Assembly: GCF_032854445.1 (NCBI RefSeq)
Contig: NC_088300.1
Span: 2,666,001-2,730,000, forward strand
From: Liolophura sinensis
Taxonomy: Eukaryota > Mollusca > Polyplacophora > Chitonida > Chitonidae
Length of the DNA stretch: 64,000 nucleotides
Reading direction: 5' to 3'
The first letter of the stretch is position 1. The number at the start of each line of letters is the position of its first letter. This document shows, one piece after another, positions 23,601 to 59,734 of this stretch. A model generated the notes under the pieces. It did no database searches and was not told the origin of the DNA. It saw nothing but the letters and a program-made list of their open reading frames with translations. The translations under genes were made by a program, and so were the position numbers.

Positions 23601-26600
23601 GAGGGTGCTCATAATTGTGAGTGACAAACTAAGAGGGTGCTCATAATTGTGAGTGACAAACTAAGAGGGTGCTCACAATTGTGAGTGACAAACTAAGAAG
23701 GTGCTCACAATTGTGAGTGGCAAACTAAGAGGGTGCTCATAATTGTGAGTGGCAAACCAAGAGGGTCCTCATAATTGTGAGTGACAAACTAAGAGGGTCC
23801 TCATAATTGTGAGTGACAAACTAAGAGGGTGCTCACAATTGTGAGTGACAAACCAAGAGGGTGCTCATAATTGTGAGTGACAAACCAAGAGGGTGCTCAC
23901 AATTGTGAGTGGCAAACCAAGAGGGTGCTCATAATTGTGAGTGACAAACTAAGAGGGTGCTCATAATTGTGAGTGGCAAACTAAGAGTGCTCATAATTGT
24001 GAGTGGCAAACCAAGAGGGTGCTCATAATTGTGAGTGACAAACCAAGAGGGTGCTCATAATTGTGAGTGACAAACCAAGAGGGTGCTCATAATTGTGAGT
24101 GACAAACCAAGAGGGTGCTCATAATTGTGAGTGGCAAACTAAGAGGGTGCTCATAATTGTGAGTGGCAAACCAAGAGGGTGCTCATAATTGTGAATGACA
24201 AACCAAGAGGGTGCTCATAATTGTGAGTGGCAAACTAAGAGGGTGCTCATAATTGTGAGTGACAAACTAAGAGGGTGCTCATAATTGTGAGTGGCAAACT
24301 AAGAGGGTGCTCATAATTGTGAGTGGCAAACTAAGAGGGTGCTCATAATTGTGAATGACAAACTAAGAGGGTGCTCATAATTGTGAATGACAAACCAAGA
24401 GGGTGCTCATAATTGTGAATCACAAACTAAAAGGGTGCTCATAATTGTGAATGACAAACCAAGAGGGTGCTCATAATTGTGAGTGACAAACTAAGAGGGT
24501 GCTCATAATTGTGAGTGACAAACCAAGAGGGTGCTCATAGCTGTGAGTGACAAACCAAGAGGGTGCTCATAATTGTGAATGACAAACTAAGAGGGTGCTT
24601 ATAATTGTGAATGACAAACTAAGAGGGTGCTCATAATTGTGAATGACAAACCAAGAGGGTGCTCATAATTATGAGTGACAAACCAAGAGGGTGCTCATAA
24701 TTGTGAGTGACAAACCAAGAGGGTGCTCATAGTTGTGAGTGACAAACCAAGAGGGTGCTCATAATTGTGAATGACAAACCAAGAGGGTGCTCATAATTGT
24801 GAATGACAAACCAAGAGGGTGCTCATAATTGTGAGTGATAAATCAAGAGGGCGCTCATAATTGTGAGTAACCAACTAAGGGGGTGCTCATAGCAGTTTTA
24901 AGGCTTATGTAACAGCCAGGCTTTAACTCAGTGTTTGAGCATCCTACTAAGAAAGCAGTAACCTAAAATCGTCTCACATTGTACAGTATTTAATACTATG
25001 TCTTCTAGACATATAGTTATTAAATCCACATATAATATATATAATATACATTTGCGCAATGGCAATACTGCACTAAATTACAAACAGAACTCACCTTGCT
25101 ATGAAATTCATGTCATAAAGTAGCCACAACAGCTCCTGAAAGGGACAGTCAACAATGTTCATTGCAAATCAAGCAGTGTTCCATCAAATAGAGAAATCTG
25201 TGATTACATTTAATACAAAAAGCAACAAGTTTTATTTCATTCTTTCTGCGCTACATAAATTAGAATAGAAAACACAGCTGGTGGTAAAAAAATAGACGGG
25301 CATATCATTGTTTTCACACCATCACACCTCAAGAGATTTTACAGTACCATGAAAAGGTTTCTGAACCAAAAAGTTACAAATATTACAGTGAAGCATGTCA
25401 GTATTTATCCTGTAGGTGCTTTATTACAAAAAAGAAAACAAAAAACCTTTTCTGACTGACATCTCAAAATTCCCTTCAAGCATTTCTACTCTGAAGTTCA
25501 TTCTATCCCTTCTTAGAAACACTAGCTGTACTTATCAGATTGGCTTACCTGTTGCAGAGCTTCCATTTCCACACTAGTTGTGCTTGCATTAATAGCAGGG
25601 TTTATAGCAGAAACCATGGCAGCCACTTCCATGTCCCGCGTGCAGATCACCACCTGGCCATTGAGGTACAGCCAACTCTTTTCAGCAACACCCATGCTGA
25701 TTGGCTGACCTCGTTTGTCCTCATTACCCTTCCCTAATTACAACCAAAAGAAACAAACTTAACAAGCAGTTTATTCATAACAAGGTTTTTGTTATCTTAC
25801 ATTATTTGAGCACAGAGAAATTTGAAAAGAATAAATGAGCCTAGACAACAACATGAATGCACACTTATGAGATCACACCTTTATGTGACTTGTTGTGTGC
25901 TGGATAATGTCAGCAAAATTTACTAGGTACACATCGTCCTAGGGAAGTTGCCAGTTCAAACTCTTTTATCGCTGAAGGTAAACAAGGTACTGAGAGACTA
26001 CCGATAACTCGCCACATTCAGCAGTTCACACAACTGTATTATGTTCAAGTCGAATATAGACCATTAAACCAACATTAGAGTAGAATGGTTGACACTGTCC
26101 AGGTGTCATATACAGATAGTATTAAAATCTTACCATTAAATCAACAAGAAAAGCCAAAATTATTATGTTGTCACAACTATGAGTAAATTTCACTGTATGC
26201 GTAAGCATTGCAGAGAGTGACTGGGTTGGTTACGTGAATCAATACAGTAGTAAAAGACACTGTGACGAGTTCGTGCACAAATTTATCCCCAGGCCTTTGA
26301 TACATGCATGCAAATCGCAACCTGCATTCGTCAATCGATGTACTATGGGTGACAACTGCAACCCTGTGCATGCCTGTGGAAATGTACCTTATGACGTAAA
26401 AAACTTTCTTGGTCTTTGATATGCAAATCACTACCGATGTTTGGCTATCTGTGTACTATGGATGGCCACTTCCAGAAACTTTTATCAAACTGGACACCAA
26501 CACCGCCACCGCTAGCATCTGATCCCCCTCTGAAAATACCCCTTACTAAAAAAAACCTACACTGTCATGTGACCTGAACAATTTTTGTTTTCTATGGGGA

Positions 26601-39100: not shown

Positions 39101-42100
39101 GTACTTTGTTAAAAATGGTAATTCCCCTAATCCCAAAGACAAATCCTACAGGAGAGATAAAACTGCCTTCAAATCCAAGAGTAAGCATATTATCTTTTCC
39201 TTTGTTTCTTTTTTCTTGTACACGTCCATATGGCCTATGTCGTTCTTCTAATATTCCAGACTGAGCATGTTGATTGAGGCGTAGCATTTAGGGGGGTGTG
39301 GACATCTGGTATACATATTCATGAGGTTGCCCTCCACTCAGTAATGCTTTTGAGGTTGTCATGGTAAACCGGATTGCCATTTACTTGTCATTAAATCCAT
39401 ATGTCAGTACAGGTATGCTAATTCTTAGGGTTGGAAGAGACACTTCTTAATTCTGTTGAGATTATGATTGGTCAGAAAAGGCAGATTCAGTGGTAATACA
39501 CTTCTTATTTCTGTGTGGTACCAGACCTATACAGGTACTTGGTAAATGCTTATTCCTGTATTGTACCACACCTCTACAGGTACTTGGTGAATGCTTATTC
39601 CTGTGTAGTACCAGGCCTGTACTTTTTGAATGGCAGTGGTTTGCTCTGGACACTCTCATTTCCTCTGTCTATGAACAGCCATATTTGTCAGGTAAAACTA
39701 GTCACATGAATACCAGACATTTGTAAGATAGGACAAAGAGCCATCTTATGTCAAGAAAGGTTATCTTTTGACCCAATTTGGTTATGATTCCACCCAGTAC
39801 CTGTTTCTCTCATGTTTTTTCTTCAGTGTTGAACAAGTATAAGAAGAGGCATTTCCACACAACAGTGAATTTGTTAACTGGCCAGACGGATGCTCACCCA
39901 GACCTGATTAAGGTAAACTCTTCTTACACTCAAGAATACTTCTTGAAATTTGTAAGAATTTATAGGATAAGTTCTGGAGATGTATACGATCATTCCAGCC
40001 AGTGGATGGGCTGTGTGGAGAGCATATCGTGGGCAAAAGGGGAACAATGAAACATTGGGGCCTCCGTAGCTCAGTCGGTTAAGCGCGCTAGCGCAGCGTA
40101 GTGACCCAGACGCCTCTCACCAATGTGGTCGCTGTGAGTTCAAGACCATCTCATGCTGGCTTCCTCTCTGGCGGTACATCGGAAGGTCTGCCAGTAACGT
40201 GTGGATGGTTGTGGGTTTCCCCCGGGCTCTGCCCGGTTTCCACCCACCATAATGCTGGTCGCCGTCGTATAAGTGAAATATTCTTGAGTACAGCGTAAAA
40301 CACCAATCGAATAAATAAGTAAACAATGAAACATTAGTACTCCTGCAACATGTGGAAAGTTACACTCATGCTTTCTGGCTTAATGTCCATATACATCAGG
40401 AGCCTTGCGTCGACCACCAGTAACAGTTATGGGTTTCCTCCAGACTGTGCCCAGTTTCCTCACACCATCATGACTTCCTCTCTGGTCATGCGTGGAAAGG
40501 TCCACCAGCAACCTGCTGACAGTTATGGGTTTCCTTCAGACTGTGCCCAGTTTCCTCACACCATCATGCTGGCCTTCTCTCTGGTCGTGCGTGTAAAGTC
40601 CACCAGCAACCTGCTGACAGTTATGGGTTTCCTTCAGATTATTCCCAGTTTCCTCACACCATCATGCTGGCCTTCTCTCTAGTCGTGCGTGTAAAGGTCC
40701 ACCAGCAACCTGCTGACAGTTATGGGTTTCCTCCAGACAGTGCCCAGTTTCCTCACACCATCATGACTTTCTCTCTGGTCATGCATGGAAAGGTCCACCA
40801 GCAACCTGCTGACAGTTATGGGTTTCCTTCAGATTGTTCCCAGTTTCCTCACACCATCATGCTGGCCTTCTCTCTGGTCGTGCGGGTAAAGGACCACCAG
40901 CAACCTGCTGACAGTTATGGGTTTCCTCCAGACTGTGCCCAGTTTCCTCACACCATCATGACTTTCTCTCTGGTCATGCGTGGAAAGGTCCACCAGCAAC
41001 CTGCTGACAGTTATGGGTTTCCTTCAGACTGTGCCCAGTTTCCTTACACCATTATGCTGGCCTTCTCTCTGGTCGTGTGTGGAAAGGTCCACCAGTAACC
41101 TGCTGACAATTATGGGTTTCCTTCAGACTGTGCCCAGTTTCCTCACATCATCATGCCCCTTTTCTCTGGTCATGCGTGGAAAGGTCCACCAGCAACCTGC
41201 TGACAGTTATGGGTTTCCTTCAGATTGTTCCCAGTTTCCTCACACCATCATGCTGGCCTTCTCTCTGGTCGTGTGTGTAAAGGTCCACCAGCAACCTGCT
41301 GACAGTTATAGGTTTCCTCCAGGCTGTGCCCAGTTTCCTCACACCATCATGACTTTCTCTCTGGCATGCGTGGAAAGGTCCACCAGCAACCTGCTGACAG
41401 TTATGGGTTTCCTTCAGACTGTGCCCAGTTTCCTCACACTGTCATGCTGGCCTTCTCTCTGGTCGTGCGTGGAAAGGTCCACCAGCAGCCTGCAGACAGT
41501 TATGGGTTTCCTCCAGACTGTGCCCAGTTTCCTCACTCCATCATGCTGGCCTTCTCTCTGGTCGTGTGTGGAAAGTAACCTGCTGACAGTTATGGGTTTC
41601 CTTCAGACTGTGCCCAGTTTCCTCACACCGTCATGTTGTCTACATGAGTGAAATGTTCTTGAGAATAGTGTAAAACACGAAAAGAAATAAATGATTTAAT
41701 TGTACAACTGGGAATGTCTGAAGTAGGGACAGATTTTTAGACATTCCATAATGTCTGATAACCTGATAATTGTTAGCATCCATGAACCCTCTTAGTACTG
41801 GAGATTATATGTCATTTGTGTATGGAATACTTTGTTTGTTATGATCATGGCAAACAGGTATGGACAGAAATTCTGTAGAATTAACCCTCCTCATACACAA
41901 GCATTGTTTGTTTTACACAGAAAGAGAACTCGTCAAAGTTTGAGATCTTGTCCCACTGGCATCCTAACCTGACAGTTAACATCCTGGATGACCACTCCCC
42001 TTGGCAGAAAGGCGCTCTCCCAGCCCCGCTAGATGAATGTGAGTCACTCAGTCTAGGGTGAGGTGGGGTGTGAGGCTGATATAGTCACAATAACTAGGAG

Positions 42101-45100
42101 TGGTCTAATAAGGTATCCCTCAGGACATTGCATCTCCTAACGACTGAGATTGCATGTTCAGCTCCTACTGGAGCTGCTGTAGGCTGAAAGATTGGTTGTG
42201 TAGATACATGTATAAAGGCAGCCCTTTGGTCTTCTCTGTATTCCTTGGTAGACTGGACTACTGTTGTGTAGGTTATATATACATGTATATGTTGTATATA
42301 TATATGAAACCCATGAGTACAATTACATTAGTCTCTTGTTGTCTTCATTTTCAATCTTGTTTAATAGTTGTTAACATGCTACATTGTCTATCCAATGTAT
42401 AGCTCATTATGTCGTACCCTGAGTGTCGCCATCGAATAACAGGGAAAGCTGTGTTAAAAAAATGTTAGGGGCGGTATCTTAAAAAGTAATGCCGGTATTG
42501 AGATCAGAATTTGAACATGTGTAGAGCGCAATAACACAAGGGGAATATTACGTCCTTGATTCATTGTGTACATATTAAATACTTTATGTTACTGCATATA
42601 ATATATCATATTTCTGACTCTGTATTGTGTAGTAGAATGAAAGTTAAACAAAATGTTTAAGGTGGTATCTCAAAAAGTACAGCATGTATTGACCTGAAGT
42701 TTTACATGCATGTAAAGCACAGTGGCACAAGGGGGATGTTCCATCGCTGATGCTCTGTGAGCATATTAATTACCGTAAATTACCAAATTCACAATTTCAG
42801 TACTTTATATATTGAGCTGAAGTTTTGTATTATTGTGTTACAGTCAAACAAGAAACTTTGTTAAATTCTGTTTGGATGCATTGCAACACCAGATAATTCA
42901 GTAGTATTTCCATTTAATACTTGGATTAGTGAATGCCTTGGTGGCACACCACCAAAAAGGATAATTACCGTGATGACCCTTGGCTGAAGCATTACTCTAG
43001 CTGTAGCTTGGTGGCTGTTGATCATTTTAATGGCATGCTGGAATCCAAATACACTTGGTTCATTTGCCAGGTTAGGCCATATGCCTGGCAAATGGTGGCT
43101 GTTTTCTCCAGGCTCAGTTGAGTGTTCTGTACCCATTGACCTAACCTGACCACAATATTATGGTGTGAAACCCCAACCAGTCAGATAAATAAATAAATGC
43201 ATCTTATTTTAAACATGACAGTGGCTTTTTCTGATTCCGTTTGAGATACATACTTAAATCAAAATTCCAGCTTAGCACAGGCCTGATACTTGTTGGTTCC
43301 TTGTCAGCTCTTGCTCTCAGAATGTTTACATTTACATTGTGTTCTTTGCAGATGTCGAATTCTTACCCACTCCCCCAGGGAAACCCTCGAAATATCTACC
43401 TGTCATTTACTTCAACGATTATTGGAACTTGAACAGCGAATACACTCCAATCAATGAGACTACCAAGTAAGTGATTTCTGAAGATGACTTCTATTCTGAG
43501 ACTACCAAGTAAGTGTTTTCTGAAGACAACTTCTGTTCTGAGACTACCAAGTAAGTGTTTTCTGAAAAAGACTTCTTTTCTAAGACTACCAAGTAAGTGT
43601 TTTCTGAAGACAACTTCTGTTCTGAGACTACCAAGTAAGTGATTTCTGAAGACAACTTCTGTTCTGAGACTACCAAGTAAGTGTTTTCTGAAGACAACTT
43701 CTGTTCTGAGACTACCAAGTAAGTGTTTTCTGAAGACAGCTACCAAGTAAGTGTTTTCTGAAGACAACTTCTATTCTGAGACTACCAAGTAAGTGTTTTC
43801 TGAAGACAGCTACCAAGTAAGTGTTTTCTGAAGACAACTTCTATTCTGAGACTACCAAGTAAGTGATTTCTGAAGACGACTTCTGTTCTGAGACTACCAA
43901 GTAAGTGTTTTCTGAAGACAACTTCTGTTCTGAGACTACCAAGTAAGTGTTTTCTGAAGACAGCTACCAAGTAAGTGTTTTCCGAAGACAACTTCTATTC
44001 TGAGACTACCAAGTAAGTGTTTTCTGAAGACAGCTTTTGCTCTGAGACTACCAAGTAAGTGATTTCTGAAGACGACTTCTGTTCTGAGACTACCAAGTAA
44101 GTGTTTTCCGAAGACAACTTCTGTTCTGAGACTACCAAGTAAGTGATTTCTGAAGACGACTTCTGTTCTGGCTGTTTTACTGGTATTCATCTTAGTTGAC
44201 ATGTACAAATGTACATGTATATATGCTGAAAATGGTGTTTGATTAGAAGTATTTTATGAAGACCTTATGTACGATTTTACAGCGTAAAGTTTCTAATGTA
44301 ACACGGTACCATCTTGTGATGTGATACCCAGAAAAAAAATGTTTGACATCAATTAAATGATGTCTGAGTCTTGCTGCTGGACGGTTGCCGTAACTGCAGT
44401 ATGTGTGTGAGTTTGCTGTCTGCCATGTATTATGGTCACAAGAAATACCCATATTAACATAAAGGAAACTTGGCATAAAAAAGAAACATTCATGTCTGTT
44501 TGCTTGTGGTTCATCTCTAATGCTCATCAAGGTTAGTTCTTGACATACTTTACATGAATGGTTAAAAGTCCCTTTCAAATGTCAAACTGGTGGTGGAGAC
44601 GTGTGTTGGTGATTCAACATTTCGTCTAAAACTGAATTTGTAGAAATCGTATCCATCTTATGTGTACCTGTGACTACCACAATATAAGTAAGAATATCTT
44701 ACTAATGGGTATAATGAAATAACTATTAATCAATAAATAAATACTGCTCCAGTTCCAGGTAATACATGATTGGCGGGTTTCCTTGTATTTTATTGGTTAC
44801 TCAGTGGTTAAATAGATGCTCATGTACACCCAGGGGAATCCCAAGCCTGAAAATAGGTGGCTGAGAGGTTTTTTTTTTTGCATCTCTTTGGAGAAAGTAT
44901 TAGTACCCATATTATGCAGGCTGTATAAAGCTATACCAAGGTTACTTGATCCAGTACTTGCATTACTTACACAAGGACAATGTGGATCTTGCCACTTTAC
45001 GCAAATTAGTATTTTAAAAACTGAAAGCCACCTATTTTCATTCTTGAAAACACCCAGAATTTAGACAGTAGACATCGGTATTCAGTGATCCTGTCTTTGT

Positions 45101-48100
45101 TTTACAGACAGTTAAACCTTAGCCTGACCTTTGGTCCGATCTCACTGTTCCGCTGGCAGCTATATGCCGCCCAGGGCATGCGCAATAAGTGGTACTCCAT
45201 GTTGGGTGCAGACTTCATGGAAGAGTCGGACGAGGACCAGGACTCGCTCAAGGTTGGTGCAGTGATATTAATACAAATTCGTCAGGATATTTTGCTGGTT
45301 CACAGGATTTTATCTTGGCCAGTGTGTACATCTGTGGGAAATCTTTTGCCTTAGATGGTATGGGTTGAATCCAGGCCATGATAAGAGAATTTCTAGAATC
45401 TGCTCCTTTCATCAGTCAAGGGACCTTGGTGACAATAAACGGTCGGCTCTGCTCTGGTGGTCATTGGTGACAATAAACAGTTGGCTCTGCTCTGGTGGTC
45501 ATTGGCGACGGTAAACAGTCGGCTCTGCTCTGGTGGTCATTGGTGAGAGTAAACAGTCAGCTCTGCTCTGGTGGTCATTGGTGACAATAAACAGTCGGCT
45601 CTGCTCTGGTGGTCATTGGCGACGGTAAACAGTCGGCTCTGCTGTGGTGGTCATTGGCGACAGTAAACAGTCAGCTCTGCTCTGGTGGTCAGTGGTGACA
45701 ATAAACAGTCGGCTCTGCTCTGGTGGTCATTGGGGACGGTAAGCAGTCGGCTCTGTTCTGGTGGTCATTGGTGACGGTAAACAGTCGGCTCTGCTCTGGT
45801 GGTCATTGGCGACAGTAAACAGTTGGCTCTGCTCTGGTGGTCATTGGCGAGATTAAACAGTCGGCTCTGCTCTGGTGGTCATTGGTGAGAGTAAACAGTC
45901 GGCTCTGCTCTGGTGGTCATTGGTGACCATGAACAGTCGGCTCTGCTCTGGTGGTCATTGGCAACAGTAAACAGTCGGCTCTGCTCTGGTGGTCAGTGGT
46001 GACAATAAACAGTCGGCTCTGCTCTGGTGGTTAGTGGTGACAATAAACAGTCGGCTCTGCTCTGGTGGTCGGTGGTGACGGTAAACAGTCAGCTCTGCTC
46101 TGGTGGTCATTGGTGAAAATAAACAGTCGGCTCTGCTCTGGTGGTCATTGGCGACAGTAAACAGTCGGCTCTGCTCTGGTGGTCATTGGCGACGGTAGTC
46201 GGCTCTGCTCTGGTGGTCATTGGCGACAGTAAACAGTCAGCTCTGCTCTGGTGGTCATTGGCGACAGTAAACAGTCGGCTCTGCTCTGGTGGTCAGCGGT
46301 GAAGGTAAACAGTCAGTTCTGCTTTGGTGGTCATTGGTGACAGTAAACAGTCGGCTCTGCTCTGGTGGTCATTAGTGACAATAAACAGTCGGCTCTGCTC
46401 TGGTGGTCACTGGCGAGAGTAAACAGTCGGCTCTGCTCTGGTGGTCATTGGCGACAATAAACAGTCAGCTCTGCTGTGGTGGTCATTAGTGACAATAAAC
46501 AGTCGGCTCTGCTCTGGTGGTCATTGGTGACAGTAAACAGTCGGCTCTGCTCTGGTGGTCATTGGCGACAGTAAACAGTCGGCTCTGCTCTGGTGGTCAT
46601 TAGTGACAGTAAATAGTCGGCTCTGCTGTGGTGGTCAGTGGCGACAGTAAACAGTTGGCTCTGCTCTGGTGGTCATTGGTGACGGTAAACAGTCGGCTCT
46701 GCTCTGGTGATCATTAGGGACAATAAACAGTCGGCTCTGCTCTGGTGGTCATTGGTGACAATAAACAGTCGGCTCTGCTCTGGTGGTCATTTGCGAGAGT
46801 AAACAGTAGGCTCTGCTCTGGTGGTCATTAGTGACAGTAAACAGTCGGCTCTGCTCTGGTGGTCAGTGGTGACAATAAACAGTCGGCTCTGCTCTGGTGG
46901 TCATTGGCGACAGTAAACAGTCGGCTCTGCTCTGGTGTTCATTGGTGACAGTAAACAGTCGGCTCTGCTCTGGTGGTCATTGGCGACAGTAAACAGTAGG
47001 CTCTGCTCTGGTGGTCATTAGTGACAGTAAACAGTCGGCTCTGCTCTGGTGGTCATTGGCGACAGTAAACAGTCGGCTCTGCTCTGGTGGTCAGCGGTGA
47101 AGGTAAACAGTCAGTTCTGCTTTGGTGGTCATTGGTGACAGTAAACAGTCGGCTCTGCTCTGGTGGTCATTAGTGACAATAAACAGTCGGCTCTGCTCTG
47201 GTGGTCACTGGCGAGAGTAAACAGTCGGCTCTGCTCTGGTGGTCATTGGCGACAATAAACAGTCAGCTCTGCTGTGGTGGTCATTAGTGACAATAAACAG
47301 TCGGCTCTGCTCTGGTGGTCATTGGTGACAGTAAACAGTCGGCTCTGCTCTGGTGGTCATTGGCGACAGTAAACAATCGGCTCTGCTCTGGTGGTCATTA
47401 GTGACAGTAAATAGTCGGCTCTGCTGTGGTGGTCAGTGGCGACAGTAAACAGTCGGCTCTGCTCTGGTGGTCATTGGTGACGGTAAACAGTCGGCTCTGC
47501 TCTGGTGATCATTATGGACAATAAACAGTCGGCTCTGCTCTGGTGGTCATTGGTGACAATAAACAGTCGGCTCTGCTCTGGTGGTCATTTGCGAGAGTAA
47601 ACAGTAGGCTCTGCTCTGGTGGTCATTAGTGACAGTAAACAGTCGGCTCTGCTCTGGTGGTCAGTGGTGACAATAAACAGTCGGCTCTGCTCTGGTGGTC
47701 ATTGGCGACAGTAAACAGTCGGCTCTGCTCTGGTGTTCATTGGTGACAGTAAACAGTCGGCTCTGCTCTGGTGGTCATTGGCGACAGTAAACAGTAGGCT
47801 CTGCTCTGGTGGTCATTAGTGACAGTAAACAGTCGGCTCTGCTCTGGTGGTCATTGGCGACAGTAAACATTCGGCTCTGCTCTGGTGGTCATTGGTGACA
47901 GTAAACAGTCAGCTCTGCTCTGGTGGTCATTAGTGACAGTAAACAGTCGGCTCTGCTCTGGTGGTCATTAGTGACAGTAAACAGTCGGCTCTGCTCTGGT
48001 GGTCATTGGTGACAGTAAACAGTCGGCTCTGCTCTGGTGGTCATTGGCGAGATTAAACAGTCGGCTCTGCTCTGGTGGTCATTGGCGACAGTAAACAGTC

Positions 48101-51100
48101 AGCTCTGCTCTGGTGGTCATTAGTGACAATAAACAGTCGGCTCTGCTCTGGTGGTCATTAGTGACAATAAACAGTCGGCTCTGCTCTGGTGGTCATTGGC
48201 AACAGTAAACAGTCGTCTCTGCTCTGGTGGTCAGCCTACACATGAAAGCCTACACAAATGTCATGGCAAAGTTTGCCATTAACTTGCCCAGCTGTGTGGT
48301 CTATCCCGTGAAGGACAATTATTTTATATGTGAAATATTCAAGTTAACAACAACTATATAAAGAACATCATAGTCTTCTGTATCATGCACAGTATGGCTC
48401 AGGCTAAAAACCAAAACCAGACTGGAGATTAACGCGATCTTAAAGATCTTTTACATAGTTTGTACAGAGTTTGTACAGAGTTTGTAGAGCCTGGAGAGAG
48501 CTCCGGGACAGACAGTCACCTGCAGAGTCAGTTATCCGTTTACTGTGACTGATCACACACACATGGCTGAGCATTGTAATGCCTATACGCTGGCTGTGGA
48601 AAGTTGATGACGGAAAATTGAGTTCTTCATGAGAATGATTTAAATGAATTTGTCAAAGACTAACACCATACATGGAGCCGAAGTAAAATATCTGATGTGT
48701 GTCTCTTTGATTGCAAGCAGTGATTTATGAGTGGGTCCATGGAAGATTTGTAATGGATCACAACGACTGCTAAAACTAGCTCTTTCTTCATCTCCCGTAA
48801 AAGTGGACAAATGTCTTTTGTTTCTTCCGTAGAAGGCTTTCCTTGTTGTGGGAGTCGTTGCCAATGAAAAATTATCTGCCACTCAGTATTTTAGCAGACA
48901 AAATTGACACTTTGACATGTCGTACAACAACAACAACAATGCAGTATTACAATACAAATTTCATGTACAAACATGGTAAAAAAATGAAAACACGATGAAG
49001 GATAAGTTAGATTTTGTTCATATAATATAACTGTAGGGAGAATTTGTAGTTTGTACCAAACCATGTAGGCAAAGCACCCACATAGCAAACGCCTGAAAGA
49101 AAAAAGAAGAAATAATTTCCCATTTGCACCAATACACTTTATTTGAATTTTTAATTGGCTTATCGGGCACATTATAACATTTTCATTACTGACTTTTCTT
49201 GACTACAAAATACCTTCATGGAAATAATTTGACTCTGTTAATAGCAATGCATATTTAGAACCCAACAACCAGACGAAATGTGATGTCAAATTGTATTTGT
49301 AGACTTGTATAAAAGTTGAAGCAAAATGTATGTGAATAGCTTATACATGTATCATTTACATACGTTTACAAGTTGTTTTTTTTTTTCGGTTTGGACAGTA
49401 ATGTCTTGGTGTATACTATATTTGTGTAAAAAATATCATGGGTGTTAGCAGCAACAGCAAAGTGGATTATTGTAGGCTTAATTAAAATACTCAGAAGTTT
49501 CATGCAGAGACCTGGAAGAAGAACTCATGCAGGCTTAGTGTCCAGCTGTGACACTTTGCCAACATTGAAGAACAATAGGTATGATGTATTGGAATAAGTA
49601 AATAATACTCACAAGTGCCAAACTTTACTAACTGACACACACTGTATGGTTTTGAACAATAGAAATGAATTAATTTCTCAAAACTGCTGGGGCTGGATTC
49701 ACCGTTTTTGTGTAAATCCCTCTTCTGTAGAGCCTATTACTTCCCAGGCGGCATTTTGGTCAGCAATTACATCTGCAGACAATCAGTAATGTAGACTAAT
49801 GTTGAAAACTTCGTTAACACACCAGTCAAATAAAAAAGAAATGCCCAGCCATTTTGGGTTACTGGTTGAAAAAGCTGATAGCTCTGGCCAGGCCTACATG
49901 TCCGTCAACCTGATGTAGCCTGTGGTGAAAAGTCTTAAACTTGGTGATGTGAGATATTGTCCTGAACACGTGTTTTGGGTTTAGTTTATTCAGTTCTTTC
50001 AATGTGCGGCTTTCACGATCCTTACAGTAATATAAATACGATGTTATTTGAATGTAACTGTATACAAACAAACATGACAAATCCTAGGACACAAATATAA
50101 AGGATCAGACAAAGGCAAGGTTCACGCACAGACAAGGTTTAGGTAGAGGCCCAGCCACGCGAGACTCCTGTCTGCCTGTGTTGGGGTGAAAGCAAGGTCC
50201 ACGCACAGACATGGCCACACAAGACTGCTGTCTGCCTGTGCATGATTGCACGTGCTTTATGTAATGTGCGATAGTTTGTAAAGTTCAAGTGAAGATTTAT
50301 CAAGTTTGCTATAATATATCTGCTGTAAGGTTTTATATCATGTAACATAAATGTATGTCATACTTAGCACGCGACCATCCATACCAGTTGATGACTTCGA
50401 TCGCATATTTGCTCCCTGAATTAAATAGCTTAATCAAGTTGATGAACTGATTTTCTTTTGTGGATGTAGATTGCAAGATAAACTTTCTGCTTTTCACGGT
50501 TAGTATATGTTCACATAGGTGAATAACCGAGAAATGCACCTGGGTTTGCAATCTAGCTGGAATTAGTCAGTAGACAGAACTATATTCACACCTTAGAGGA
50601 TAATCCTGCTCACCTGAGCAGGCCTCCAACACACCTCAGTAGAGGGTTTGTGATGCATCAGTAGAGCATTATTCAGTGTGTGGGAGAGTGATGCGAGCAC
50701 TGAACATTGACTTTTAGTCTGACAGTACTGCATGGTGTACATGTACCTGCAGAATGAAGTAAGGCTGTTTGATTACATGTTGAATTTGTCATCAACACTT
50801 AAACCATGAATTCTTTAACTCATTAGGCCTCACCATAGAGCTCAGCAGAAGTTGTCAGTGTTTCTGCAGTGCCTTATTAAAACCAATGTTATCAAGAAGT
50901 AATGAACTTGCTAAAATGATTTGGATCAGTGTCTCTTCTAGTAACTGCTTATATTGTTTCAAATTAAAGAAATTTCATTGCTACACACTTTATAAATGTA
51001 TGATATATTGTTCATTTGTGACATTTCAGACGACTTTCCTGGAAACTAACCCCTACCTGCTGGCCCTTACCATCATCGTATCCATCATCCACAGCGTGTT

Positions 51101-54100
51101 TGAATTCCTGGCATTTAAAAATGGTTAGTGTAAACCACAACAAAAATAACGGAAAAAATGTGAATACCAGCATTACATCCTGCTTGGTCCTGCATGAATC
51201 ACGGAAATCGTAGAAAATTCTCAAGAAAAGTTTCATAAAAATTCCTAACTTTGATCTTTCTTAATTTTGGATGTATTAATCTGTTAAAACAAAAACTTTC
51301 ATAAAGAAAGTTAATTGTATTATTTCCTCACCAATAAATCTCCCTCCCCCCTTACCCCCTCCCCCCCCTTACCCCCTCCCCCTTTGAGTAAGTGAAAAAT
51401 TCTTGAATACAGCATTTAACAGTAATCAGACAAAATATATAAGTAGTGCTGGTTTCTGAATACACAGTTCTGATAGCCTTTGTCGTTGTTGTGACTATTT
51501 CCAGATATCCAATTTTGGAAGGGTCGTAAGTCTCTAGAAGGGCTGTCGGTGCGGTCAGTTTTTTTTAATGTCTTTCAATCGCTGATTGTTGTCCTGTATG
51601 TACTGGATAATGAGACCAACACTGTGGTCAGGATCAGTGTCATCATTGGACTAGCCATAGAAGTCTGGAAAATATTCAAAGTCATAGATGTTAAGGTAGG
51701 TCAAACACTAGTCAAACTAAACTGACTTTTGGACTGTGAACTAAGTACATGAAATTAGTCAGTAATATTCACGTGTTTATCTGTTCTGCATCTATAGTAT
51801 ATGTTAACTGTAAAATCTTCAGCACTGATATACATGTTATTGGCAAAATTAACCTCCATTAACAGGTGGGTATGGGCTGTGCATGTATATGTTAATTGTA
51901 AAGTCTCAAGACATGATGCAGGTCCTAACCAAACTTAGTCAAGCCTCTGTGTTATACAAAGATTTTCATTCTATTTGACTGGACGGACTAAGTGATATGA
52001 TTTATTGTATTGATACCTTGACACAGGTTGACAGAGAAGCCAAGTTACTTGGAGTCTTCCCAAAGATAACTTACGAAGACAAATCTACATACACTGAGTC
52101 CAAGACCAAACAGTATGATACAGTAAGTCTCTGCATTAATTAGCCTTTGTGGTTTGCAAGCTGTGACCACTGTGTAACATGCACCAATGTCTCAGTGGTG
52201 AGTAAGAGAAGTGATATATACTAAACTGTCTGCTTAAATGAGTTTGACAGCTTGCTGAAGTTTTCATTTTGCTAAATCAGGAGATCAAAATTGTGCTTGT
52301 TTAGCTTATGTCATATCACGAGCGTCAGCTTCGAGTAACAGTGAGAGTAATGTTAAAGTAAATGATGGTTGTGGAATCAGATGTTTACATAAATGTAAAG
52401 CACTATACAACAAAAGGAATTCATGACCTACACATCTCTCTTTGTGTGTGTAGGTATATGGAGCTGAAGCTCAGCATTCATGTGTCTCTTACAGGAGAGC
52501 TTTTTGTTAGACTTGCTACAAAATCCAAGTATGCTAACATACTTGTGAATGGATTGCCTTACTTCCAACTGTCTGACAAATATTTGCATTAGTTTTTCTT
52601 ATTCTTAAGCCATGGTTCTTATAGAATTTAGGACTCAGATGATCAGGTGTGGGAAGGCATTTTTTGTTTAACTGAATCAGTTTGAAAACAAAAAAAACAT
52701 CAATAAAAAAAAGAAATTTTTGAAATTGGTTCCACTCTTGAAATAAAAGTTGATCTTTTATTTTATTTCAAGAATGGTATTTACATCTTCTGAAAGGTGT
52801 TTCCTGCAAGGTGTAACAAACTAATCACCTAATCGATCAGGTGTCCTCTACACATGTGCATCTTGTTCTAATTTGTATTGGCATATCATGGCTGGTGACC
52901 AAATCCTGACCGGAAAGGACAACACATTTATAAAATTTGTCAATGCTGTATGTTTGACATCTGAATTGTAATCATTATAGTTCCGCTGCGAATAAGATTA
53001 AGTTTGATTTACTTGTGGCTGCTGTGGTTTCAGATGGCGTTTAAGTACCTGTCATGGTTGTTGTTCCCCCTGCTGGGTGGATATGCTGTGTACTCGTTGT
53101 TTTACATGGAGCATCGAGGCTGGTACTCGTGGGTTCTCAGTATGCTCTATGGTTTCTTACTCACATTTGGTAAGTCTCCCATTATTGTTACACCATGTCC
53201 TTGTTACTCCCACTGTTTTGTCATCAAAATGATGAAGTACGCTGTATTTGTGTCTATTATGGATGCTTCCACCATTTGAGTAAACTCTTGGGGTTGTGAG
53301 CCCTCTTCATTCTTTGATGGAACTGGTAAAGCCCATGCAATGAATAAAATAGATAATTATTTCATAAGGGTATTGAGTGTTAATTATTAAGTTTTCATAC
53401 ATTTAGATGGGATAAGTTTGTATTTGTTTAAGTGCTGTGTAAGGTAAACCTGTTATACTGTGTAGGTTTATGCCAGTTACCTGTAGGTTTGTACCATTTA
53501 CCTGTAGATTTGTACCATTAACCTGTAGGTTTGTACCCTGTATATTTGTAACATTTACATGTAGGTTTGTACCATTTACCTGTAGGTTTGTACCATTTAC
53601 TGTAAAGTACTTTTTATTCGCTGGAATTTATTTTCACAACTTTTCTCCAAAAATATGTTCGTGGGAATTAATTTTTGCGTGTTTAAGAGAACACTGAAAA
53701 ACAAATCTTTAAATTTTCCAACACATAATATGGCTGAAATTATTCAAGCACATCAAACAGGTATTATCAATAGTGGGCATAGCGAAGATTGATCAAACGA
53801 AAGACAAATAAACTCCCACTTTGTTTTATACCCACCAAACCTTACTCCCGTCACCCTGGGAAAGATTTCACTTCATTATTACTACTACCTGTAGTAGCTG
53901 GTTTAATATTGGATATTTTTTTTGCTGCCATTATTTTTCACTGTAAATTATTGACTGCGAAAATTAGTTCCACATGAAAATTAAGTACTTCACAGTAGCT
54001 GTAGGTTTGTAACATTTACCTGTGATAAAGGTTTGTAACATTTACCTGTGATAAAGGTTTGTAACATTTACCTGTGATAAAGGTTTGTAACATTCACCTG

Positions 54101-55304
54101 TGATAAAGGTTTGTAACATTTACCTGTGATAAAGGTTTGTAACATTCACCTGTGATAAAGGTTTGTAACATTCACCTGTGATAAAGGTTTGTAACATTTA
54201 CCTGTGATAAAGGTTTGTAACATTCACCTGTGATAAAGGTTTGTAACATTTACCTGTGATAAAGGTTTGTAACATTCACCTGTGATAAAGGTTTGTAACA
54301 TTCACCTGTGATAAAGGTTTGTAACATTTACCTGTGATAAAGGTTTGTAACATTTACCTGTTGTATATTGTAGGTTTCATCATGATGACTCCCCAGCTGT
54401 TCATCAACTACAAACTCAAGTCTGTGGCCCATCTGCCCTGGAGGATGATGACATACAAGGCCCTCAATACCTTCATAGATGATATATTTGCCTTTGTTAT
54501 AAAGATGCCAACGTTGTATCGAATTGGATGCTTTAGAGATGGTCAGTAAATTTCCTACAGTCTAGAAAGCGAAGAAATTGTATCGTATATCACAGTATGC
54601 TGCATGGAATCTGTAGAAAAAAACAATGCAAGATAATGAAATGAGGAATAAAAAGCCTCAGTCCTCATCAAGTAAGCCATGTCCTAGTAGTGTCAAAATC
54701 TGAACACTGCCGGCTGGGTAGGTATACATGCAGTTGTAGGTGTTAACCACACTTCAGACTGCTAGGCTGTATTTATCAAACAAGCTATCCTTAGGTATGT
54801 GTGATGGTTCTTTCTTTCTTTCTTTCAATAAAATTTGAGCGTGGAAACTCTTGATTGAGTGAGCCCTGTTTTAGTGTTCAACATAGTGTTCGAGTGTGTT
54901 TTGACAAATAGGTGGAAGTTTGCATCTGAATAGAAGTCCGGCTTTACATCACTGTGTTTCATATAGGTTTAGATAAAGGCTAGATTGGAATCTGTTCAGT
55001 AGCATGTATATTCAGTAAAGAAAGCACCCGATGCATTTACTCTTTAGGCGATGTCTTTACCAGGTAATCAGTGTGACTAACAGATTAATCTCCCTTTGCA
55101 GATGTGGTGTTCTTCATATTCTTGTACCAGCGTTGGATATATCGTGTGGATCCCAAGCGTGTGAATGAGTTTGGTATTAGTCAGGAGATGTTAGAAAGGA
55201 ACGGTCAGACATTCCAGACTGAGAGTGGAGCGGCCATCGAGGGGGGCGATGCTCAAGCCGCAGATCCACAACCTAAGACTGACAAAGAAAAGAAAACTGA
55301 CTGA
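33048..55304 (+). CDS. CLPTM1: CLPTM1 family membrane protein, complete, 14 coding exons, 634 residues
   Basis: Multipass ER membrane protein. Vertebrate CLPTM1 retains GABA-A receptors in the ER, and its paralogue CLPTM1L is reported to flip GlcN-PI. Exons: 33048-33131, 35338-35532, 38521-38679, 39066-39180, 39827-39912, 41921-42038, 43352-43466, 45108-45252, 51030-51123, 51505-51695, 52027-52122, 53034-53169, 54374-54541, 55102-55304; 1905 nt, all phases fit. One N-terminal membrane segment (~48-63) precedes a large lumenal domain. A C-terminal multipass block holds LLALTIIVSIIHSVFEFLAF, LLFPLLGGYAVYSLFYM, SWVLSMLYGFLLTFGFIMMT and VVFFIFLYQRWIYRVDPKRV. The NWQ/FRWQLYAAQ region and the short KEKKTD tail also fit CLPTM1 rather than CLPTM1L. 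Five minisatellites lie in its introns. Confidence 0.97.
33132..35337. other. CLPTM1 intron 1, nothing recognised
   Basis: 2.2 kb with no array, SINE or further exon recognised. Confidence 0.6.
35338..35532 (+). CDS. CLPTM1: CLPTM1 exon 2: residues 29-93, first membrane segment
   Basis: Acceptor tcctcag. It encodes NGWSMIKGFAIRMLIIYLIS SFF RRG; the hydrophobic stretch at about 48-63 is the single N-terminal transmembrane segment, followed by a Pro/Gly-rich linker and FNTFSKNMEM. Donor gtaagt. Confidence 0.95.
35958..36117 (+). mobile_element. SINE copy, head-truncated, CLPTM1 intron 2
   Basis: gcatgtgggaaggtctgaca, then gcttgcggatggtcctgg, ccgggctctgcctggtttcc, and the tail gtataagtgaaatattcttg agtacagcgtaaaa, ending in aaataaataaataaa. 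It is very close to the intact copy at 40057 but lacks the tRNA head. Confidence 0.85.
37655..37801. repeat. Foldback element: 26-bp perfect inverted repeat, 95-bp loop
   Basis: Left arm 37655-37680 and right arm 37776-37801 are exact reverse complements (core agtacagggtagcaagacag), flanked by tatatat on both outer sides. About 55 bp further right is ccctgaggatgac...gttcgaaagc (37853-37886). Confidence 0.85.
38521..38679 (+). CDS. CLPTM1: CLPTM1 exon 3: residues 94-146, lumenal domain
   Basis: DMYVYVNEEEQFSEFDKPEN, LFWLERSLIYGDWEAGPNHD, then GSIVKHGQISVTE. Acceptor attttcag, donor gttagc. The YGDW motif is typical of the family. Confidence 0.95.
39066..39180 (+). CDS. CLPTM1: CLPTM1 exon 4: residues 147-184
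   Basis: NLQNNGSLFIHVYFVKNGNS followed by PNPKDKSYRRDKTAFKSK. It matches the family NGS.YIHVYF block. Donor gtaagc. Confidence 0.95.
39505..39622. repeat. ~50-bp tandem repeat, about 2.5 copies
   Basis: Units carry tacaggtacttggtgaatgc, ttattcctgt and gtaccaggcct. Located in CLPTM1 intron 4. Confidence 0.85.
39827..39912 (+). CDS. CLPTM1: CLPTM1 exon 5: residues 185-213
   Basis: MLNKYKKRHFHTTVNLLTGQ then TDAHPDLIK. The NKYKKR...NLLTG block is characteristic. Acceptor cttcag, donor gtaaac. Confidence 0.95.
40043..40335 (+). mobile_element. Intact tRNA-derived SINE with 14-bp target-site duplication
   Basis: Element 40057-40321 (265 bp) is flanked by perfect direct repeats aacaatgaaacatt at 40043-40056 and 40322-40335. 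The head is tRNA-like: ggggcctccgtagctcagtc ggttaag has the A box, and gtgagttcaagacc resembles a B box. The unique body runs gctggcttcctctctgg to ccaccataatgctgg. The tail is gtataagtgaaatattcttg agtacagcgtaaaacacc, ending in taaataagtaa. The intact duplication means a fairly recent L1/LINE-type insertion. The family may belong to one of the animal SINE superfamilies with a conserved centre, but I cannot name it. Confidence 0.92.
40404..41640. repeat. 96-99 bp satellite derived from SINE body, about 12-13 copies
   Basis: Unit: gtcgtgcgtggaaaggtcca, ccagcaacctgctgacagtt, atgggtttccttcagactgt, gcccagtttcctcacaccat, catgctggccttctctctg. Two unit types alternate (catgctggcc 99 bp, catgactt 96 bp). 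The unit aligns end to end with the body of the SINE at 40057 (tctctctggcggtac...aatgctgg). Open frames of 110-223 codons here are repeat artefacts. Confidence 0.95.
41622..41700 (+). mobile_element. SINE tail closing the satellite
   Basis: Directly after the last satellite unit: gtctacatgagtgaaatgtt, cttgagaatagtgtaaaaca, then aaagaaataaatgattt. This matches the SINE tail ataagtgaaatattcttgag, so the satellite sits inside a SINE copy. Confidence 0.8.
41921..42038 (+). CDS. CLPTM1: CLPTM1 exon 6: residues 214-252
   Basis: KENSSKFEILSHWHPNLTVN then ILDDHSPWQKGALPAPLDE. The SHWHPN and DDH.PW motifs are family hallmarks. Donor gtgagt. Confidence 0.95.
42400..42815. repeat. Two diverged copies of an unclassified ~190-bp dispersed repeat
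   Basis: gtgtcgccatcgaataacag and ggtatcttaaaaagtaatgc near 42425-42490 recur in changed form near 42660-42690 (ggtatctcaaaaagtac), each followed by cacaagggggat-like sequence. A third related copy appears at about 52305-52480. No terminal repeats or tRNA boxes were seen. Confidence 0.55.
43040..43200 (+). mobile_element. Possible old SINE copy
   Basis: aatggtggctgttttctcca, ccacaatattatggtgtgaa, then a cagataaataaataaatgc tail. Resemblance to the SINE family is weak; only the tail type and a few words agree. Confidence 0.3.
43352..43466 (+). CDS. CLPTM1: CLPTM1 exon 7: residues 253-290
   Basis: YVEFLPTPPGKPSKYLPVIY then FNDYWNLNSEYTPINETT. Acceptor ctttgcag; the true donor gtaagt is at 43467. 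The last bases of this exon and its donor are the seed of the adjacent minisatellite. Confidence 0.95.
43457..44170. repeat. 42/28-bp minisatellite carrying copies of the exon 7 splice donor
   Basis: Unit gagactaccaagtaagtgtt, ttctgaagacaacttctgtt, ct (42 bp); some units are 28 bp (taccaagtaagtgttttctg aagacagc). taccaagtaagt starts at 43461 (genuine), 43503, 43545, 43587, 43629, 43671, 43713, 43741, 43783, 43811, 43853, 43895, 43937, 43965, 44007, 44049, 44091 and 44133: 18 copies. The coding end of exon 7 is therefore the first unit of the array. Confidence 0.97.
44848..45039. repeat. Inverted repeat, 15-bp arms
   Basis: tgaaaataggtggct at 44848-44862 and agccacctattttca at 45025-45039 are exact reverse complements. 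They span 192 bp of intron 7, perhaps a decayed foldback element. Confidence 0.6.
45108..45252 (+). CDS. CLPTM1: CLPTM1 exon 8: residues 291-339
   Basis: QLNLSLTFGPISLFRWQLYA, AQGMRNKWYSMLGADFMEES, DEDQDSLK. FRWQLYAAQ and SDEDQDS.K match the family. Acceptor tttacag, donor gttggt. Confidence 0.95.
45415..48235. repeat. 38-bp minisatellite, about 74 copies, CLPTM1 intron 8
   Basis: Unit cagtaaacagtcggctctgc plus tctggtggtcattggcga. Spacer variants ggcgacag, ggtgacaa and agtgacag recur. A block of 21 units at 46291-47088 is repeated at 47089-47886. Confidence 0.98.
48236..51029. other. Rest of CLPTM1 intron 8
   Basis: No exon recognised. It contains a two-copy direct repeat near 50122-50240 (cacgcacagacaaggt... 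and ctgtctgcctgtg), otherwise plain AT-rich DNA. Confidence 0.55.
51030..51123 (+). CDS. CLPTM1: CLPTM1 exon 9: residues 340-370, membrane segment
   Basis: TTFLETNPYLLALTIIVSII then HSVFEFLAFKN. The hydrophobic span at about 348-368 is the first membrane segment of the C-terminal block. Acceptor atttcag, donor gttagt. Confidence 0.96.
51340..51376. repeat. C-rich tract (G-rich on minus strand)
   Basis: ctccctccccccttaccccc followed by tccccccccttaccccctcc. On the minus strand it has at least four runs of four or more G, so a G-quadruplex is possible. A SINE-like tail follows at 51384-51440. Confidence 0.6.
51380..51445 (+). mobile_element. SINE tail fragment
   Basis: gagtaagtgaaaaattcttg, aatacagcatttaacagtaa, tcagacaaaatatataagta. 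It corresponds to the SINE tail ataagtgaaatattcttgag tacagcgtaaaac. Body and head are missing. Confidence 0.6.
51505..51695 (+). CDS. CLPTM1: CLPTM1 exon 10: residues 371-434
   Basis: DIQFWKGRKSLEGLSVRSVF, FNVFQSLIVVLYVLDNETNT, VVRISVIIGLAIEVWKIFKV, IDVK. Two hydrophobic spans lie around 390-405 and 412-428. FW..R.SLEGLSVRSVF is a signature of the family. Confidence 0.96.
52027..52122 (+). CDS. CLPTM1: CLPTM1 exon 11: residues 435-466
   Basis: VDREAKLLGVFPKITYEDKS then TYTESKTKQYDT. Cytosolic or lumenal loop with the conserved DKSTY. Acceptor gacacag, donor gtaagt. Confidence 0.95.
52736..52773. repeat. Small perfect hairpin in CLPTM1 intron 11
   Basis: tcttgaaataaaa (52736-52748) pairs with ttttatttcaaga (52761-52773) across a 12-nt loop. 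It is AT-rich and could be a chance hairpin. Confidence 0.5.
53034..53169 (+). CDS. CLPTM1: CLPTM1 exon 12: residues 467-511
   Basis: MAFKYLSWLLFPLLGGYAVY, SLFYMEHRGWYSWVLSMLYG, FLLTF. Membrane segments at about 472-490 and from about 498. Donor gtaagt. Confidence 0.96.
53462..53599. repeat. ~20-bp minisatellite, left part (TGTAGGTTTGTACCATTTACC)
   Basis: About six units of ctgtaggtttgtaccattta. It is interrupted at 53600 by an inserted element; a related array resumes at 54000. Confidence 0.85.
53600..53995. mobile_element. MITE-like element, ~396 bp, TA target site
   Basis: Terminal inverted repeats: tactgtaaagtactt (53598-53612, including the flanking TA) and aagtacttcacagta (53983-53997), one mismatch, with looser pairing further in (attcgctggaatttattttc against gcgaaaattagttccacatg aaaa). 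Flanked by TA on each side. No transposase frame, so it would be non-autonomous, Tc1/mariner-like by target site only. Confidence 0.7.
54000..54360. repeat. 26-bp minisatellite, about 13-14 copies, abutting exon 13 acceptor
   Basis: Unit tgataaaggtttgtaacatt plus tacctg (alternating attTacc/attCacc). It ends at tttacctg, only ~13 bp before the acceptor AG at 54372-54373. It is related to the array at 53462 (ggtttgtaacattta against ggtttgtaccattta). Confidence 0.95.
54374..54541 (+). CDS. CLPTM1: CLPTM1 exon 13: residues 512-567
   Basis: FIMMTPQLFINYKLKSVAHL, PWRMMTYKALNTFIDDIFAF, VIKMPTLYRIGCFRD. This is among the most conserved parts of the family. Acceptor atattgtag, donor gtcagt. Confidence 0.96.
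55102..55304 (+). CDS. CLPTM1: CLPTM1 exon 14: residues 568-634, stop
   Basis: VVFFIFLYQRWIYRVDPKRV NEFGISQEM, then a polar tail ending DKEKKTD and TGA at 55302-55304. The tail is shorter than in human CLPTM1 (669 residues). Confidence 0.95.
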
Positions 55305-57699: not shown

Positions 57700-58895
57700 C
57701 TTCTCATGTGTACAGCAGCTGGAGTTGCTCCTCACGGACCAATGCCGTCGGTCGCTGCTCCTGCATACAGCAGCTGGAGTTGCTCCTCACGGACCGATGC
57801 CGTCGGTCGCTGCTCCAGCATACAGCAGCTGGAGTTGCTCCTCGCTGACCGATGCTGTCGGTCGCTGCTCGTGCATACAGCAGCTGGAGTTGCTAATCAC
57901 GGACCGATGCCATCGGTCGCAGCTCGTGCATACAGCAGCTAGAGTTGCTCCTCGCTGACCGATGCCGTCAGTCGCTGCTCCTGCATACAGCAGCTGGAGT
58001 TGCTCCTCGCTGACCGATGCCGTCGGTCGCAGCTCGTGCATACAGCAGCTTGAGTTGCTCCTCGCTGACCGATGCTGTCGGTCGCTGCTCATGCATACAG
58101 CAGCTGGAGTTGCTAATCACGGACCGATGCCATCGGTCGCAGCTCGTGCATACAGCAACTAGAGTTGCTCCTCGCTGACCGATGCCGTCAGTCGCTGCTC
58201 CTGCATACAGCAGCTGGAGTTGCTCCTCACTGACCGATGCCGTCGGTCGCAGCTCGTGCATACAGCAGCTTGAGTTGCTCCTCGCTGACCGATGCCGTCA
58301 GTCACAGCTCGTGCATACAGCAGCTTGAGTTGCTCCTCGCTGACCGATGCCGTCAGTCACAGCTCGTGCATACAGCAGCTTGAGTTGCTCCTCGCTGACC
58401 GATGCCGTCGGTCGCTGCTCGTGCATACAGCAGCTTGAGTTGCTCCTTGCTGACCGATGCCGTCAGTCACAGCTCATGCATACAGCAGCTTGAGTTGCTC
58501 CTCGCTGACCGATGCCGTCGGTCGCTGCTCGTGCATACAGCAGCTGAGGTTGCTCCTCGCTGACCGATGCCGTCGGTCACTGCTCATGCATACAGCAGCT
58601 TGAGTTGCTCCTCGCTGACCGATGCCGTCAGTTGCTGCTCCTGCATACAGCAGCTTGAGTTGCTCCTCGCTGACCGATGCCGTCAGTCGCTGCTCCTGCA
58701 TACGGCAGCTTGAGTTGCTCCTCGCTGACCGATGCCGTCGGTCGCAGCTCGTGCATACAGCAGCTGGAGTTGCTCCTCGCTGACCGATGCCGTCGGTCGC
58801 AGCTCCTGCATACAGCAGCTTGAGTTGCTCCTCGCTGACCGATGCTGTCGGTCACCGCTCGTGCATACAGCAGCTGGAGCTGCTCTTCATTGACT
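57700..58895. repeat. 55-bp minisatellite, about 21-22 copies
   Basis: Unit agcagctggagttgctcctc, gctgaccgatgccgtcggtc, gctgctcgtgcatac. It is GC-rich compared with its AT-rich surroundings. Each unit contains the hairpin gaccga-tgccg-tcggtc. Period 55 rotates frames, so the 66-101 codon frames on both strands are artefacts. Confidence 0.97.
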
Positions 58896-59734
58896 GATGT
58901 AATCAGTCACTCCTCAGTCATTCATTAATACAGTGAACAAGGTTTTGATGTGTTTGCAACTTTTCAAGAGGTGGGGCCCACCACTTGTTGCATGCCAGAG
59001 AAAATTTGATGCAGACAGAAAATACATGTAGCACTTGGTTCTAAAATTTCTGTACATAGAGAACTAGACGTTAGGAAATGCAAAACACATGTAGTGCCAG
59101 GTTCTGAAATTTCTGTACTTTCATACTTATTGAACTAAACTGATCAAGGACTAGATAAAAACCACTAAACTGATCAAGGACTAAATAAAAACCACTATTT
59201 AATCAAACGAATTAACTGCCTACATGAATGGCCAAAATCTTTGACTGTCATATAAAAGTCGGGGCCCCAGCGTTTCCACTCGCAGCCTCAGGACAATGCT
59301 AACCTTGGAATCATGACTCCTAAACAAGGGGCACTGACATTATTGTTAAATATTTCGGCTATACAGCTCTGCACTCTTCAGACTCGCATCTCGGGACACC
59401 AATTAACTTTGAGTGGTAATCTGTCACGGAGCTTCAAGGGGCCACCTATAAGCCCTGGCAGTTCATAGGTGACCTGTGGACCCTCACCTATTGTGCTGTG
59501 GTAGCCTCTCCCACCCCCTACCACCACCACACCCACCCGTCTTCCCAACCTGTTTTTGCAGGAGAAAATGTACCATAATGCTAAGTAAATTATTTCTCAA
59601 TTCAAATAAGTTTTAATTACACATCTAAATAAAGAACTAAAATAGTGTTGATAGTAGAATGATTACTCCACACAAGGAGATCTTTGATTCTTGCTGAATA
59701 AAAAGACAAACTAGATGAATCTGGGGCAGAAATA
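58896..59734. other. Intergenic DNA
   Basis: No gene recognised. A 30-bp two-copy repeat (aaactgatcaaggactagat aaaaaccact) lies at about 59136-59194. Confidence 0.55.

Follow-up and report, generated by a model that had tools for sequence, protein, structure and literature searches.

The window analysed here, a stretch of 64,000 nucleotides from the chiton Liolophura sinensis, is part of contig C6 of an assembly of 632 contigs (609 Mb) and carries the gene CLPTM1. The gene was identified by tblastn with human CLPTM1 as the query, which places its exons between about 35340 and 55190, and Pfam PF05602 matches the later ones. With exon 6 beginning at 41921, splicing exons 2 to 13 together at their GT-AG sites gives a single open frame; the number given to exon 7 presumes one exon upstream of exon 2. 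Exons 2 to 7 hold about 262 codons, and the protein reads NETT-K-QLNLSL across the exon 7/8 junction, with exon 8 starting at 45108 as an earlier reading of the same DNA, made from the letters alone (the sequence-only reading), had placed it. No solved structure matches the protein of exons 7 and 8 at E 0.001. The relevant features, in window coordinates, are the following.

43352 to 43466, plus strand: CLPTM1 exon 7 (115 nt; ending in PVIYFNDYWNLNSEYTPINETT + AA), from tblastn, PF05602 on later exons and the open frame of exons 2 to 13
43455 to 44170, plus strand: minisatellite of 42-bp and 28-bp units, with unit 1 lying across the exon 7/intron 7 boundary
43467 to 43472, plus strand: authentic donor GTAAGT (CAA/GTAAGTGA), the sole copy that leaves the TAA at 43468 outside the exon, with an open frame into exon 8
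43468 to 43470, plus strand: TAA read at once after AAG on use of any decoy donor
43509 to 44144, plus strand: 17 decoy donors, CAA/GTAAGTG followed by T or A, at 43509, 43551, 43593, 43635, 43677, 43719, 43747, 43789, 43817 (decoys 1 to 9) and 43859, 43901, 43943, 43971, 44013, 44055, 44097, 44139 (decoys 10 to 17)
43719 to 43746, 43789 to 43816 and 43943 to 43970, plus strand: 28-bp units
45108 to 45252, plus strand: CLPTM1 exon 8, acceptor tttacag/ACAGTT, from tblastn and the open frame
54003 to 54361, plus strand: 26-bp array adjoining the exon 13 acceptor (...ACATTTACCTGTTGTATATTGTAG/GTTTCATC), whose units carry AAAGGTTT
2901 to 5467, 11291 to 15394, 23388 to 24891, 40423 to 41635, 57711 to 58899 and 61786 to 64000: long minisatellites of varied units

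The end of exon 7 and its donor do form part of the first unit of a tandem array, as the sequence-only reading had proposed: unit 1 runs on from the exon without a break, with TGAGACTACCAA/GTAAGT there and throughout the array. The match between units begins at T43455 or G43456, which puts 11 or 12 exon bases inside the unit, and the array ends at 44170; unit 1 is therefore made of the last 11-12 coding bases of exon 7, the donor, and 30 intron bases. Tandem Repeats Finder (TRF) finds 11.8 copies of a 42-bp unit at 43455-43962, with further related calls up to 44170. The motif TACCAAGTAAGT has 18 exact copies on the plus strand of the window and none on the minus strand, which agrees with the 17 further sense-strand donors that had been claimed, while GTAAGT would be expected about 0.25 times by chance in 720 bp. 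The array had been described as one of 42-bp units, and this spacing between donors is indeed found 14 times, but three units measure 28 bp. These shorter units have GACAGCTACC in place of the GACAGCTTTTGCTCTGAGACTACC of a longer variant (the unit from 44013), and they may have arisen when a unit of that longer type lost 14 bp at a CT microhomology. When the 161 bases of exon 7 plus unit 1 were searched as DNA against the whole assembly, all 17 matches fell at the CLPTM1 locus. The two edge units, 1 and 18, have A at +8 and G at +20, where inner units mostly have T and A, as expected if inner units have been homogenised and edge units have not.

An assembly error that invented or enlarged the array appears highly improbable. 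The assembly is a near-chromosome draft showing one haplotype only, which leaves some room for such an error, but the units differ among themselves and the same structure recurs at other loci. The assembly was built on HiFi reads with a mean of 8.3 kb at 14X (PMC11068029), and reads of this length easily span 0.7 kb, which makes an error in an array of this size unlikely.

All 18 donors read CAA/GTAAGTG, and they are identical from -7 to +7. Every copy thus keeps a full GTAAGT, in agreement with the earlier statement that all are strong donors. A weight matrix that ends at +6 gives 5.8 to every one of the 18, the third best score among the 12 CLPTM1 donors scored, so that all 17 decoys equal donor 1. 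The sites had also been called identical, which is correct from -7 to +7 but not at +8, where donor 1 and four decoys have A and the other 13 decoys have T. With a simple duplex model of the U1 5' end (unmodified U1 assumed), the form with T at +8 is predicted to pair at -7.5 kcal/mol and the form with A at -6.4 kcal/mol, and 13 of the 17 decoys would therefore pair better than donor 1. By predicted U1 pairing, the authentic CLPTM1 donor is not the best of its row, and the suggestion that the locus offers a natural test of donor choice is upheld. As a separate matter, the idea that RNA folding hides the decoys was ruled out, predicted accessibility being low for all 18 sites and third lowest for donor 1.

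With a decoy in use, exon 7 would grow from 115 nt to between 157 and 787 nt. The TAA at 43468-43470 would then be read directly after AAG, as the sequence-only reading had anticipated. The premature stop that a switch based on nonsense-mediated decay calls for is thus present (AAG TAA at 43465-43470, via any decoy). The array might accordingly be imagined to tune CLPTM1 output, some transcripts using decoys, meeting the TAA and being degraded, with array length setting expression. Such tuning would draw on the 17 of 17 decoys that are full donors (13 of them with better predicted U1 pairing than donor 1), on the stop that directly follows decoy use, and on a block from -10 to +7 free of substitutions. 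However, wherever GTAAGT or GTGAGT stands after base two of a codon, the letters are read as NNG TRA. Every GTRAGT donor in that phase thus brings a stop automatically, and the TAA in CLPTM1 requires no special design.

The substitution-free block deserves comment. No unit of the array has a substitution at -10 to +7, letters that differ at -12 to -8 in three units being the deletion junction of the 28-bp units. Under random placement of the 10 variable columns, in a test devised after the data were seen, the probability of no change is P 0.002 for the block from -10 to +7, P 0.04 for any run of 17 positions, and P 0.06 for the 9-nt donor alone. This hints weakly at constraint or at a recent spread, and we read it as the mark of a young array or of chance. 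Changes in the 9-nt donor compared with its flanks number 0/153 versus 31/323 in CLPTM1 (flanks including the deletion junction). Four further arrays, which come from the survey below and leave CLPTM1L aside to make five arrays in all, give 3/99 versus 17/209 in CCT3 (L033; one diverged copy included), 10/45 versus 18/95 in CCT3 (L041), 5/54 versus 17/114 in CCT5, and 14/54 versus 10/114 in PSMB1 (one spurious upstream hit included). In two of these four non-CLPTM1 arrays the donor has changed at least as much as its flanks, and in the other two it has changed somewhat less, which yields no general rule of selection on decoys.

To see how often exon boundaries lie in arrays in this genome, we surveyed the CCT genes, the proteasome genes and a second CLPTM1-family gene on contig C5, which from its weaker similarity to human CLPTM1 is probably the paralogue CLPTM1L. 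A boundary was counted as in an array when the 32 bases around it had a second copy nearby matching at least 26 of 32. Splice sites were picked on DNA by weight matrices and by reading frame, and positives, and positives only, were inspected by eye, so that wrong picks are possible among the negatives. The CCT sample comprised 30 loci of 50 matches, with four exons lacking a donor and six an acceptor (profile end or no scoring site); all 21 proteasome matches were used, three donors and four acceptors being dropped, and all six CLPTM1L matches, with one acceptor dropped. Arrays were found at 3/26 donors and 0/24 acceptors in CCT exons, 1/18 and 0/17 in proteasome exons, and 1/6 and 1/5 in CLPTM1L, for a total of 5/50 donors and 1/46 acceptors. 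CLPTM1 itself (1/12 donors, 0/13 acceptors) is excluded from this total, being the starting case.

Random positions in the same loci had a nearby copy in 210/1800 cases for CCT, 26/1260 for proteasome and 318/1000 for CLPTM1L, and from these shares 5.3 donors would be expected in arrays versus the 5 seen, and 4.7 acceptors versus the 1 seen. Donors are thus neither sought nor spared by arrays, which hit them at about the rate expected from random strikes, the counts being small. Acceptors (1/46) may be spared, which would fit a rule by which splicing takes the first acceptor beyond the branch point; this is a lead only, and the difference between donors and acceptors is not significant (5/50 versus 1/46, Fisher P 0.21).

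The donor arrays of the survey differ widely in their units. In CCT3, one exon (L033) ends MALAQ/GTGTGT and is followed by 66-bp and then longer units, in which 10 further copies keep GT; another (L041, assigned to CCT3 by its place in the same gene) ends RIA-AG/GTGAGT and has units of 47-60 bp with five further copies, one of these five decoys having lost GT. CCT5 has AAG/GTGAGT in units of about 109 bp with six further copies, and PSMB1 has AAG/GTTCGT in 80-bp units with five further copies, two of them without GT. In CLPTM1L (C5:1288001-1304000), the donor array has GCA/GTAAGT in 60-bp units with 16 further exact GTAAGT; TRF gives it 22 copies at 1128-2437 of the joined locus, and it is open in frame at its start, where our script picked copy 2 as the donor since the unit is open in frame (copies 1 and 2 both lie in the array). 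The acceptor array of the same gene (TCTTCACAG/GCCATGAAATACC) consists of 118-bp units x 2.9, counted as three copies, at 14568-14910 of the joined locus.

Decoys with better predicted U1 pairing than the first donor occur in three of the six donor arrays (13/17 in CLPTM1, 14/16 scored in CLPTM1L, 2/5 in PSMB1), and by the weight matrix in CLPTM1L and PSMB1 only. Use of the second donor would bring an immediate stop in CLPTM1 and CCT3 (L041), whereas CCT5 and PSMB1 would reach a stop in no more than 22 codons. In CCT3 (L033; 22 codons per unit) and in CLPTM1L (20 codons) no stop interrupts the unit in frame, and in these two arrays use of the first copy is assumed.

These arrays weigh against a tuning role. 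The same anatomy recurs in unrelated housekeeping genes about as often as the background frequency of arrays would predict, GT has been lost in 2/5 decoys of PSMB1 and in 1/5 of the CCT3 array L041, and a decoy in the open units of CCT3 (L033) and CLPTM1L would lead to no stop. Tuning of output by unproductive splicing, which the sequence-only reading had offered as one possibility, thus finds no positive support, the stop being automatic in that phase (as also in one CCT3 array), and we consider it unlikely.

Some boundary arrays lie close to the acceptor side. One CCT3 exon of about 100 nt (L042, C8 near 53412069-53412482) has no acceptor copy at 26/32, the best reaching 22; five upstream copies of the acceptor's intron side (TATGTACAG) are present, and the exon side is uncopied at the strict threshold. 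This exon has on its acceptor side a 41-bp array, to which these intron-side copies belong, and a 27-bp array starting within about 20 bases of its donor. The intron before CLPTM1 exon 13 contains similar arrays of 21 bp (53461-53604) and 26 bp (54003-54361), in which TGTAGGTTT or AAGGTTT is common to units and junction. The 26-bp array at exon 13 is possibly a decayed acceptor-side case, no copy passing the strict threshold.

Roughly 30% of the window is taken up by tandem arrays (TRF rows merged by hand). Among them is a 38-bp array of 74 copies at 45426-48233, which starts about 170 bp past the exon 8 donor. Genome-wide, the pattern of three AGGTAAGT gave 210+366 overlapping matches versus 238+156 for the reversed motif, the one control motif used, and this pattern does not include CLPTM1's own CAAGTAAGT. 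Distinct arrays counted by eye among the matches listed for the first 90.4 Mb of contig C1 numbered 15 for the donor motif versus 17 for the reversed one, with no enrichment. The idea that donor motifs are favoured seeds of minisatellites is unsupported by this comparison of 15 versus 17 arrays on the compared part of C1. Since donor-motif arrays are no commoner there than reversed ones and arrays make up roughly 30% of the window, dense minisatellite growth suffices to explain arrays that start at splice sites.

The same counts bear on another possible role, in which the decoys would give U1 additional places to bind within the intron and stay uncut, for example blocking premature polyadenylation or delaying splicing. 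The many strong U1 matches in series would suit such a role, but AGGTAAGT arrays show no excess over the control motif on the compared part of C1 and some decoys have decayed in other boundary arrays, and we regard it as very unlikely.

Elsewhere in the same assembly, the mitochondrial contig carries cox1, cox2, atp6, nad2, nad3 and cox3 on one strand and nad1, nad6, cob, nad4L, nad4 and nad5 on the other (genes named by eye), an order that we take to be the ancestral mollusc arrangement and that speaks against amphioxus as the source. A search of the assembly for the GFP family returned no match, which does not by itself establish absence. Contig C99 has seven COX1 matches (one partial) from 8348 to 102844, about 15.5 kb apart, and is perhaps a head-to-tail concatemer of mitochondrial sequence, either an assembly artefact or a nuclear insertion; contig C632 (15,209 bp) has one COX1 copy.

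The array at exon 7 is best understood as a neutral by-product of dense minisatellite growth, of the 'mirage' type described below, with the first, exon-proximal donor in use, a reading to which we give a probability of roughly 0.8. A short tandem duplication of 12 exon and 30 intron bases, with a microhomology of 2 bp (TG) at its edges, would have chanced to include the exon 7 donor, and the array would then have expanded by slippage or unequal exchange. By exon definition, the exon 7 acceptor would be paired with the closest good donor, giving an exon of 115 nt, before later donors count. Later donors, if ever used, would yield exons of 157-787 nt with a stop, and their transcripts would go to nonsense-mediated decay. 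The array would have no function of its own, and the remainder of it would simply be intron. The array anatomy, the reading frame and the recurrence in other genes are directly observed; that the array arose by slippage, that its first donor is used, that exon definition is the reason for this and that the array is neutral are all inferred.

Use of the first donor is supported by the frame, which stays open over exons 2 to 13 with donor 1 and would include the TAA with any later one. It is also supported by the amphioxus mirages, reported as harmless to splicing, and by the fact that housekeeping genes here carry such arrays. If the first donor is indeed used, strength alone is not the rule, given the decoys with stronger predicted U1 pairing in three of six donor arrays. 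A rule of position is not to be presumed either, since strength, SRSF1 and hnRNP A1 are the factors named for competing donors in one study (PMC5585400).

Choice among equal or better donors is usually studied with two-site minigenes. In this chiton genome several genes have such arrays, with as many as 18 donors, and their decoys range from weaker than the first site, through equal, to stronger, so that ordinary RNA-seq could separate position from strength. The case gains interest from its recurrence in the small survey and from the decoys that exceed the first site in predicted strength. Tentatively, and at somewhat less than even odds, we propose a broader reading: donor-copying arrays are common here (5/50), their decoys are often better and essential genes tolerate them, which would mean that the spliceosome picks a donor by its position next to the exon, almost regardless of strength, and that the genome is rich in natural experiments with multiple donors and is steadily supplied with material from which new exon ends and introns could form.

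Minisatellites across exon-intron boundaries were named 'mirages' in amphioxus, where two papers describe them in Adh3, the globins BflGb6 and BflGb9, troponin C and PGBD5 and state that mRNA and splicing are left undisturbed (PMC3087553, PMC3902484). Amphioxus mirages and the CLPTM1 array alike are tandem repeats across an exon-intron boundary whose copies retain splice signals, and edge units escape homogenisation in the former and appear to do so in the latter. The CLPTM1 unit spans the boundary, its 42 and 28 bp lie within the 10-160 bp given for mirage units (PMC3087553), and 17 of 17 decoys have GTAAGT. In contrast, the CLPTM1 array belongs to a mollusc, not to the cephalochordate lineage in which the term was coined (which is no structural criterion), and it has 18 intact donors in one array. 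Amphioxus mirages come with RT-PCR, haplotype and somatic instability data, whereas the CLPTM1 array is known from one assembled copy alone.

Two other systems share part of this picture. In human segmental duplications, internal tandem repeats at exon-intron boundaries (PMC2812944) likewise show minisatellite growth at a boundary, shifting repeats between exon and intron, but the paralogues concerned are of recent primate origin and frequently have alternative transcripts and a putative gain of introns. DOK7 intron 4 (PMC5585400) likewise has several usable donors for one acceptor, with strength and the SR and hnRNP proteins SRSF1 and hnRNP A1 governing the choice between competing donors; it differs in that two sites lie 11 nt apart, regulation has been demonstrated and there is no tandem array. 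A paper on Conus gene structure (PMC3862624) deals with intron microsatellites and not with boundary arrays, and our literature search, with most subscription papers outside it, returned no earlier report of boundary arrays in a mollusc. The boundary array itself is thus of a known kind, that of the amphioxus mirage, and the mollusc case is new. The extension of the phenomenon to a mollusc suggests that mirages follow from dense minisatellite growth and are not a lineage-specific trait.
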